Shown here piece by piece: positions 7,157-38,387 of a stretch of DNA of 64,000 nucleotides. This DNA is from Bacteroidales bacterium. Lineage in GTDB: Bacteria > Bacteroidota > Bacteroidia > Bacteroidales > GCA-2748055. The position numbers and the translations under genes are program-made. Numbering within the stretch: position 1 is the first letter of the stretch; every line of letters starts with the position of its first letter. Location: contig JAIPBT010000012.1 in NCBI GenBank assembly GCA_021738565.1, positions 1-64,000 of the forward strand. The letters run 5' to 3'. A model generated the notes under the pieces. That model was not told the DNA's origin, did not search any database, and saw only the letters and a list, made by a program, of their open reading frames with translations.

Positions 7157-7329
7157 CGCTTGATACATGCAACACTAAAGAGAGTCTGTCAATAAAGTCG
7201 AGTGGCTGGATGCTTATTATAAGAATTTTTCTTGTTTTTCAGCAGGCCCTATTTATGAAACCTTATAATATTATCTGCAATCTGATTTTTATTTATTAAC
7301 TTGAATCACAGAATTCAATTCAAATAATT

Positions 7330-9660: not shown

Positions 9661-9717
9661 GGCTTGCTGAAAACTTTATTGACAGGCACTAACGAAATAT
9701 TGTTCAGAATCTAAAAT

Positions 9718-11244
9718 ATGCCAAATCCAAACGCTATGAAAAATACAGTATTCTCAATTTTTTTATGCTTTTTTCTTGCTTCAGCAGGTTTTGCGCAGAA
9801 TAAGAGAATACCTGTTCTGGAGACCATGCCATTGCAGATACAATTTGATCATCACCTCCAGGAGTGGGACGGGTTCGGATTCAATTATGTTGAAACGGCC
9901 CAAACCACGGATTACAATGAATGGCCGCAGGATTACGGTGGCTTCAGCCTGCTCAGCGATAAAGAGAAAGATGAGATCATCAACCATGTTTTCGGTGAGG
10001 ATGGACTAAAAGTGGGACTGGTTAAGATGTTTCTCGATCCCTGGCACCAGCCTGATCCCGGCGGACCTTTTGATCACGAAAAAACGACCTCAAACATGCG
10101 TGAGTTTGTGAAGGCAGGTTATGAAGTAACCAAAAACCGTGGCGCTGGACTACAGATAATCACAACCCTTTACGGGCCGCCTGCCTGGGCCACAAAACAG
10201 AAATTCCTGAGGGGCCGTGACCTGGATCAGGAGATGAAGGACGGGCTGGCGCGTTATATGGTCGACTGGGCCAGGTTTTTGCAGCAGGAAGAAGGACTTC
10301 CCCTGAAATATATCTCATTGCACAACGAGGGGGAGGACTGGCACCGGTGGCCCAGGGACGGGATGTCCCCTTTCATCGGCGAAGGACACGATTACAACAT
10401 GTGGTGGCCATCAGAGCAGACCGTGAATTTTATTAAGATGATGCCCGGATTTATCAAAGATGCAGGGCTGGAGGATGTACACATAACCAATGGGGAATGC
10501 TCCAACTGGTTCCGGTTCAGTCATTGGGGGGATGCCGTGGCAATCTCCGGGGATCCTGAAGCCGTCCGAAATCTTGGACTGGTCACCTCCCATGGTTTTT
10601 ACAACGGAACTTACAACTACTGGTACGGAGATCACAATCCATTGGGAATAGATCTCATAAAAGCAAAAAGACCGGAAATTCATGCTTGGGTCACCTCTTC
10701 GAGCTGGGCGAAGATGGATGCAGATTTTGTAAGGCAGATATATGGAAGCATCTATTCTGTCGGGGTAAACGGGTTCATTCCCTGGGCAGGTATTCAGCGC
10801 CCACCGCTCTGGGTTGGCGGCGACCCGAATCCCGGGAATGCAATCCAGGTAAGCGAGGAGGGCGACTACGAACTCCGTAACGGCTATTACTTCTATAAAC
10901 AGGTATCCAGGGCCGGTCAGCCCGGGATGAAAGTGGCACGCACCATTACCAGGGACACTGAATTGACCGCTATTGCATTTTCCTCTGACGGAACCGGCAA
11001 TCCTGATGCTTTCGTGGTGTTGAATACACGGACCTCGGGAGATTCAGGGGGAAACTTTTCAAACAGGTCATACAAAGACCTTTCAATTCATGTAAAAGGA
11101 ACAAAAGCAAAAAGATTCATTGCTTATAGGACAGATGGCCGGAATGAATTATACAAATACATCGGGGAATTCCCGGTTGAAAACGGAGTAATAGAATACA
11201 CGGCTCCCCCCGGAAGTGTGACCTCGTTTTTTGCAGCAGAATAA
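9718..11244 (+). CDS. GH30-like secreted glycoside hydrolase
   Basis: Signal peptide FASAGFAQN; LQEWDGFGFNYVETA, YISLHNEGEDW (acid/base NE-type motif), TIM-barrel followed by a beta domain. Confidence 0.65.
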   Translation: MPNPNAMKNTVFSIFLCFFLASAGFAQNKRIPVLETMPLQIQFDHHLQEWDGFGFNYVETAQTTDYNEWPQDYGGFSLLSDKEKDEIINHVFGEDGLKVGLVKMFLDPWHQPDPGGPFDHEKTTSNMREFVKAGYEVTKNRGAGLQIITTLYGPPAWATKQKFLRGRDLDQEMKDGLARYMVDWARFLQQEEGLPLKYISLHNEGEDWHRWPRDGMSPFIGEGHDYNMWWPSEQTVNFIKMMPGFIKDAGLEDVHITNGECSNWFRFSHWGDAVAISGDPEAVRNLGLVTSHGFYNGTYNYWYGDHNPLGIDLIKAKRPEIHAWVTSSSWAKMDADFVRQIYGSIYSVGVNGFIPWAGIQRPPLWVGGDPNPGNAIQVSEEGDYELRNGYYFYKQVSRAGQPGMKVARTITRDTELTAIAFSSDGTGNPDAFVVLNTRTSGDSGGNFSNRSYKDLSIHVKGTKAKRFIAYRTDGRNELYKYIGEFPVENGVIEYTAPPGSVTSFFAAE

Positions 11245-17816: not shown

Positions 17817-17965
17817 CTGTTTATTTTTTAATGAAATTAACATAAGCGTGTATCAATAATTTTGTCATGGCTCGGTTCATATCATGTATTTTGCTCACCA
17901 GACATTAAATACCTTGTGAAAGAACAACACCATCTATTCTATATAGCGCTTGTCTATAAAGTTGG

Positions 17966-18094
17966 AGTGTCTGTCCATAAAGTCCGATAGCTGCATTGCT
18001 GCAAAAATCTTAAATCCTCGAATCCGTCAGTCGGCGGATACTGCGGTTTAAGATTTTTGAGCGCTTTGCTCTCGAACTTTATGATCCAGCCACT
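17966..18094. repeat. 129-bp imperfect palindromic element, copy A
   Basis: AGTGTCTGTCCATAAAGTCCGA...TCGAACTTTATGATCCAGCCACT; inner arms AAAAATCTTAAA/TTTAAGATTTTT and ATCCGTC/GGCGGAT. Confidence 0.88.
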
Positions 18095-18217
18095 ATATAG
18101 CTCCCGCAAGAAAACTCATAATAATTGTCCGTGCTTGATAAGAAAGCTTCAAGAGCACTTATATAGCAAACCAGTGACCAAAATAGTTTAATCCTGTTTC
18201 AAATTTTGCATCCTCAT

Positions 18218-37065: not shown

Positions 37066-38091
37066 ATGAAACGCAGGACATTCTTCAAAACATCAGCATT
37101 CGCCAGCCCTGCAGTACTCATGGGCTGCCGCATGAATGAAAATGAAGCTTCAGATCCAATGATAAAAAAAGTTGAAATGGCCATGCTTTCAATGCAGCGT
37201 GCCTCCTGGGAACAGGGAGTAGCGGCACAGGCGTTCCTTGAATCCGGAAATAAAGAAATGACCATCCGGATGGCGTATGAAGCGGTGCTCAGGCAACAGG
37301 AAGATGGCCGGCTGTCGGTATTGTATACGGGCAACGGGGTTACCGATCCTGCCGCTTCCGGACAGGCAGTGCTGTATGCTGCTGAAAAGACCGGGGATGA
37401 AAAACTAAGGGAGGCATCTGCCAATATGGTCAGTTACCTGCTCACTACGGAACACCGGGCAGAGAACGGAACCCTGCACCATATACGGAGCGGTCCGGAA
37501 ATCTGGATCGATGCCATGTACATGGCACCCCCATTTCTTGCTGCAGCCGGGCAGTATGATGAAGCCATAAAACAGATCGACGGATTCAGAAAAGCTTTGT
37601 GGAGCGAACCATCAAAATTATATTCCCACCGTTGGAATACAGAAGAAAAAGTCTTTGTAAATAAAAAATTCTGGGGTGTCGGAAACGGTTGGACACTTGC
37701 CGGGATCAGCCGGGTAATAGAATTGCTTCCCGCTGCTTATGCTACACAAATTCAAAAACTGATCGGATATGAGCAGGAGCACCTGTCAAGCATCCTCTCA
37801 TACATGCGGTCAGATGGACTGTACCACGACATCATCGATGATCCTTCCAGCTTCGTGGAGACCAACCTTGGGCAGATGATCGCATACACGATCTATACCG
37901 GGGTAAGGGCAGGATGGCTTGACAAGAATCTGATTCCAGAGGCAGAGAAAATGCGCAGCGCCGCTCGTTCAAAAGTGGACGAATACGGATATGTCACAGA
38001 TGTATGCGGAGCACCCTATTTCAATGCACCCGGCAGGGCAACGGAAGGACAGGCATTTTTCATGCTGATGGAGGCTGCAAGGAATAAATAG
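37066..38091 (+). CDS. GH88/GH105-like unsaturated glucuronyl/rhamnogalacturonyl hydrolase
   Basis: WGVGNGWTLAGISRVIELLP; DGLYHDIIDDPSSFVETNLGQMIAY; RR/lipobox-type signal MKRRTFFKTSAFASPAVLMGC. Confidence 0.78.
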   Translation: MKRRTFFKTSAFASPAVLMGCRMNENEASDPMIKKVEMAMLSMQRASWEQGVAAQAFLESGNKEMTIRMAYEAVLRQQEDGRLSVLYTGNGVTDPAASGQAVLYAAEKTGDEKLREASANMVSYLLTTEHRAENGTLHHIRSGPEIWIDAMYMAPPFLAAAGQYDEAIKQIDGFRKALWSEPSKLYSHRWNTEEKVFVNKKFWGVGNGWTLAGISRVIELLPAAYATQIQKLIGYEQEHLSSILSYMRSDGLYHDIIDDPSSFVETNLGQMIAYTIYTGVRAGWLDKNLIPEAEKMRSAARSKVDEYGYVTDVCGAPYFNAPGRATEGQAFFMLMEAARNK

Positions 38092-38212
38092 TGTCTGTCC
38101 ATAATATCCGATATCTGCGTTGCTGCAAAAATTTTAAATCCTCGAATACTTTAGTATACTGCGGTTTAAAATTTTTGCGCGCCTTGATCTCGAATATTAT
38201 GATCCAGCCACT
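38090..38212. repeat. 123-bp imperfect palindromic element, copy B
   Basis: AGTGTCTGTCCATAATATCCGA...TCGAATATTATGATCCAGCCACT; covaries with copy A. Confidence 0.88.
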
Positions 38213-38232
38213 GCACTTTATTAACGGAATCT

Positions 38233-38261
38233 AAATAGTGTCTGTCCATAATATCCGATAT
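38233..38261. repeat. 29-bp direct repeat of the left end of copy B (38086-38114)
   Basis: aaatagtgtctgtccataatatccgatat present at both positions. Confidence 0.9.
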
Positions 38262-38387
38262 ACTCATGTATATTATAATTTCAGCAGTATTTCCCGAAGT
38301 ATCGGGACAGGCAGTGAGCTCGCTTTGCTCGGTTCTGCGTTGCTCTATTTTTAGTATCATTGCAAGTAGAAACCAACATCCTGGAAT

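Follow-up and report, generated by a model that had tools for sequence, protein, structure and literature searches.

MITEs with the ends of a local IS are known from the Bacteroidota. MITECca01 of Cardinium (Bacteroidota; PMC9769881) is short (about 240 bp), non-coding, mostly intergenic and present in high copy number, and its TIRs are those of an intact IS with which it shares a genome. Within the Bacteroidales, BrickBuilt, MITEPgRS/MITE464, MITE239 and MITE700 of Porphyromonas gingivalis likewise have the TIRs of local ISs (PMC4596501). The parent of MITECca01 is, however, an IS982-family IS, and the accessible part of that account describes neither a palindromic core nor a double right end like those seen here. 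The TIRs of the P. gingivalis MITEs match IS5-family ISPg elements (GAGACC.../ACGTCA...) and show no resemblance to AGTGTCTGTC, while BrickBuilt has a tandem-repeat core. Matching ends are instead found in the ISNCY-type ISs of NCBIfam NF033593 (L104 and L119-L129), which have TIRs AGTGTCTGTCYATAAAGTC and 4-bp ANNT duplications. Unlike our elements, these ISs encode a transposase, and the MITEs share essentially only the ends with them. Our literature search found neither the TIR string nor any description of ISNCY-element MITEs from Bacteroidetes. The palindromes are a new MITE family with ISNCY-type ends, and as a kind of mobile DNA they are ordinary and known.

The window is the whole 64-kb stretch of DNA analysed. 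Direct reading confirmed two palindromes, at 17966..18094 (copy A, + strand, 129 bp) and 38090..38212 (copy B, + strand, 123 bp), with the shared ends given in the original prediction. That prediction had taken these boundaries as the ends of the element, but an outer tail of 20-21 bp with a second TIR falls outside them. Most copies have such a tail beyond the earlier right end, for example CCAACTTTATTGACAAGCACT, which reads AGTGCTTGTCAATAAAGT on the opposite strand and there agrees with the left end AGTGTCTGTCCATAAAGT. From left to right, the element has a TIR, AGTGTCTGTCCATAAAGTC, then a core that is an imperfect palindrome and ends in an inner TIR-like copy, ACTTTATGATCCAGCCACT, and finally a short outer tail with the working right TIR, ACTTTATTGACAAGCACT. 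Complete elements are about 143-150 bp long, and the consensus TIR is AGTGyyTGTCmATAAAGT.

Copy B follows this plan. Its core, of the T44 arm subfamily and with a short apical loop, is followed by a 20-bp right tail (38213..38232, + strand) whose second TIR has decayed (GCACTTTATTAACGGAATCT vs GCACTTTATTGACAGACTCT of other copies). The complete copy, 38090-38232, has the target-site duplication AAAT on either side by direct reading (38086..38089 and 38233..38236). The upstream GH88-like gene (37066-38091; Pfam PF07470) ends in a TAG stop formed by the last T of AAAT and the AG of copy B. A truncated element of a different subfamily directly adjoins copy B (38237..38343, + strand; 3' limit approximate). 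It has the left TIR and a GATATACTCATG... core, and is like the 168-bp element of L047 through GGTTCTGCGTTGCT.

Copy A departs from the plan in the placement of its tail. Compared with other copies, its 21-bp tail lies on the left and is inverted relative to the core. This tail, at 17945..17965 on the - strand, consists of the TIR AGCGCTTGTCTATAAAGT plus TGG and is the reverse complement of the right tail of other copies. The complete copy is 17945-18094, with ATAT at 17941..17944 and 18095..18098 (direct reading, T-ATAT-AGCGCTTGTC ... CCAGCCACT-ATAT-A). In L003, a 129-bp unit lacking the tail has ATTT directly on both sides. Because the inner end CCAGCCACT abuts the target duplication in both copy A and L003, where the inner right end was apparently used, the sequences suggest either that the inner TIR copy can serve as an end or that in-place inversion of the palindrome can occur. 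Copies of the palindromic MITE often have beside them a second small repeat with the related start AGTGTCAGAAAGAAAACTCATATTATTT (19 sites, including L007, L012, L018, L072 and L092). A partial match to it at 18095-18180, directly right of copy A, may be a decayed copy.

Elsewhere in the window there are two remnants, a solo MITE end AGAGTCTGTCAATAAAGTCGAGTGGCTGGATGC (7181..7216, + strand) and a solo TIR AGTGCCTGTCAATAAAGT (9673..9690, - strand). We rejected the inverted pair at 7181 and 9690 as a single element, given its unequal flanks and the lack of a transposase domain between the two. The gene between them encodes a 776-aa Por-secretion-tail protein, and its flanking by TIR remnants is probably chance. 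The motif TTTTCAGCARGCCCTATTT adjoins both remnants.

The original prediction described two copies. A search of the element's own genome (3.98 Mb, 83 contigs) found about 32 full-length copies of the core subfamily of A and B, at 84-100% identity, and relatives occur in four other genomes, of which three belong to the same genus and the fourth to a different one. Allowing up to one mismatch, the left end AGTGTCTGTCCATAA occurs 111 times in the genome vs once for the reversed control, and the right-end form of the TIR 137 times vs 0, the two patterns overlapping in part at one mismatch. Contigs C1, C5, C9, C38, C48 and C73 of G000 terminate within or next to a MITE copy, at a distance of about 120-140 bp. 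The assembly thus seems to break at MITE repeats, and the copy counts are lower bounds.

The 4-bp flanks are identical in 64 of the 88 site records with both ends (some of these being one palindrome read on both strands), with a T before in 60 and an A after in 62, and element lengths in these records cluster at 143-150 bp. The target duplications, in the context T|ANNT|A, include AAAT, AATT, ATTT, AAGT and others. In favour of mobility, the syntenic intervals of two congeners have no TIR where the element at L062:13536-13726 inserted; a base-for-base clean empty site was not obtained, and for copy B no orthologous empty site could be located, as the upstream gene matched nothing at the DNA level in other genomes of the genus. 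A different pairing at L062, of inverted TIRs at 9722 and 13726 with about 4 kb between them, was rejected as a long element; it encloses ordinary genes and its two TIRs belong to separate elements.

Other cores share these ends. A second abundant core (TTTGCTGCGTTACGCTCGTCGGGAAATTGCTCATCCCGATAATATATCGGGACTCCGC...) forms elements of about 143-148 bp (L071, L077, L083, L086, L088, L096 and others) and longer versions of 190 bp (L090, L099). Very short elements of about 34-47 bp contain little beyond two TIRs (L013:141; L053, - strand, 1541; L083:14688; L142:1472-1518). Some of them keep intact 4-bp duplications, and they are apparently products of core deletion.

Short length without coding capacity, high copy number, TIRs, a target duplication of fixed length, and TIRs and duplication length in common with an autonomous IS together identify the family as a MITE. 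The suggestion that the palindromes were "MITE/REP-like" holds in its first half and not, in the strict sense, in its second. REP/REPIN palindromes, moved by the tyrosine transposase RAYT, are also abundant, small and mostly intergenic (PMC3733652, PMC3116915), and the high copy number and intergenic positions seen here recall them. However, our MITE ends have no GTAG/CGTC tag and no RAYT accompanies them, the elements have TIRs and 4-bp target duplications, and the matching IS encodes a DDE transposase rather than a Y1/HUH enzyme. The DDE transposase and the target duplications contradict a REP/RAYT identity, and we give that reading practically no chance of being right.

The genome has three DDE_Tnp_1 genes, one of which, at L104, lies inside a 1640-bp IS. 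This IS (505-2144 of L104), present as one intact copy in the genome, has TIRs AGAGTCTGTCAATAGAGT / AGAGTTTGTCTATAAAGT with AATT on both sides. Its 443-aa transposase matches the NCBIfam model NF033593 ISNCY at 372.6 bits against a cut-off of 325, and also PF01609. We did not assign it to the IS1202 family, from the former ISNCY group; transposases of that family are described as Tn7 TnsB-like, and the L104 protein matches IS5 and IS1182 models after NF033593. Ends of the L104 kind also occur in homologous ISs from GTDB genomes (Mariniphaga, Pararcticibacter, other Bacteroidota, and two bins that carry the labels Ignavibacteria and Parcubacteria). In L119 (Mariniphaga) and L120, the right ends are identical to the MITE end AGTGTCTGTCCATAAAGT. 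Among the seven ISs with both flanks readable, six have ANNT duplications (L104, L120, L121, L122, L127 and L128) and L129 does not. A copy in the congener G003 (L107/L116/L129) is 96-98% identical, with its transposase frame split into two pieces in the assembly.

From these shared ends, the MITE family is probably moved in trans by the transposase of an ISNCY-type IS. The DDE transposase would bind the TIRs common to MITE and IS, and would insert the MITE at T|ANNT|A, duplicating 4 bp. Against L104 as the driver, the genome has just one copy of it, and several positions of its 18-bp ends do not agree with the MITE ends that are most common. The true driver may therefore be another relative, lost or unassembled.

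Roughly one insertion in three is at a stop codon. Among 49 distinct exact insertions (at least 90 bp, with enough flank), this holds for 18. In 10 of them the cut follows the T of the stop and the AG of the element restores TAG, and in the other 8 the element lies 2 bp past the stop. For comparison, 38 of 342 TANNTA sites that lie outside gene bodies in the same loci are at a stop codon. The excess is significant (Fisher p = 2.5e-6, on 18 of 43 tolerated insertions); the gene calls behind it were rough and were made after the flanks had been rejoined across each insertion. Both the excess and the restored TAG count in favour of a domesticated MITE, its hairpin being kept as an intergenic 3'-end element that stabilises mRNA or acts as a terminator, a role compatible with our best explanation. 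However, insertion at stop codons as the least harmful sites predicts the same pattern, and survival bias can explain the excess. The rough gene calls further weaken the case for a 3'-end role, as do the occurrence of copies in all gene orientations and, by direct reading, the lack of a U-tract after the hairpin, unlike an intrinsic terminator. We consider such domestication unlikely.

The original prediction also raised the possibility of a structured RNA. On this reading the element would be a regulatory or small RNA whose base pairing is selected. Strong folding of the two copies agrees with this: copy A folds at -51.3 kcal/mol (z = -6.5) and copy B at -38.7 kcal/mol (z = -7.4), with 0 of 200 dinucleotide shuffles as good in each case. 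The "about six paired substitutions" between them were roughly right. In four stem pairs both partners have changed (16/113 and 17/112 in CATAAAGT/CATAATAT; 25/104, GC/TA; 44/87, CG/TA), but the apical stem has been replaced as a block and differs in length. Across 37 copies, nine pairs of the named structure are changed on both sides, in 47 such cells against a shuffled mean of 14.4, and these double-change cells are also well above slid controls. The covariation is genuine, and it is mostly fixed between old subfamilies.

What the double changes mostly mark is these old subfamilies. In the C44 subfamily, the largest with 22 copies, 37 cells leave Watson-Crick pairing (15 A-C, 5 G-U and 17 other stem departures), while only 3 are double changes. 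Further copies lacking compensatory changes, which the original prediction had named as evidence against it, are thus found in part, many young copies having single-arm changes that are mostly uncompensated. In all copies, G-U cells number 16 and A-C cells 40, contrary to the G-U preference expected from selection on a + strand RNA. Since some A-C cells are shared by descent, this counts as a lack of support for RNA selection and not as evidence for the opposite strand. No family in Rfam 15 matched the 64-kb window at the gathering threshold. Target duplications bound most intact copies, and the genomic neighbours vary from copy to copy. A role as RNA is unsupported, and we judge selection for RNA base pairing very improbable, although hairpin selection would also yield covariation above the shuffled or slid controls.

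The original prediction had cautioned that templated quasi-palindrome correction could give the same pattern, and this fits the data better than a structured RNA. In L017, a T-type left arm is joined to a right arm of the C type, and either apical loop can be found with either arm type; the mixed arms and shared loops suggest that copies have recombined or converted one another. Symmetry of this sort can arise by template switching between arms, as has been published (PMC8794818, PMC8604942). Beginning from a palindromic ancestor, the arms would have been kept symmetric and mixed by template switching or conversion, both between arms and between copies. Arm symmetry fits better with DNA-level arm copying and subfamily mixing than with RNA-level selection. 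Taken as a whole, a MITE family with ISNCY-type mobilisation and arm symmetry from DNA-level processes is, in our assessment, highly probable.

The same layout recurs beyond the genus. Of 296 genomes sampled across the order, 33 contain the TIR pattern; the reversed control gave only isolated hits. Elements in other families of the order (L140, L144, L152 and L155) have the same plan, with left AGTGTTTGTCCATAATGTCCGA and right CTCGAACATTCTGAWCCAAACACT plus GACTTTATGGACAGACACT in small variations, around different cores. The tailed palindrome is thus either ancient or horizontally spread. Folding is strong in L152 and L144 but not in L155; in the whole-element folds of L152 and L144, it is the two outer TIRs that pair with each other, not the inner copy. 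With the layout recurring in other genomes of the order, the hairpin itself could be selected. A bolder proposal is that the tailed, bulged palindrome is a selected device common to MITEs with different cores in several families of the order. Transposition would then be controlled by the hairpin or by which right end, inner or outer, is used, and the AG end would spare stop codons on landing; we regard this as unlikely.

Striking covariation between genomic palindromes can arise from a mobile-element family, so a claim of an RNA from such a pair should come only after a search for TIRs and target duplications. For the ISs of NF033593, listed as "not characterised yet", the analysis supplies a testable end sequence and a 4-bp target rule, T|ANNT|A. 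They also gain a widespread set of dependent MITEs in the Bacteroidota, with an apparent habit of inserting where the stop codon is restored.
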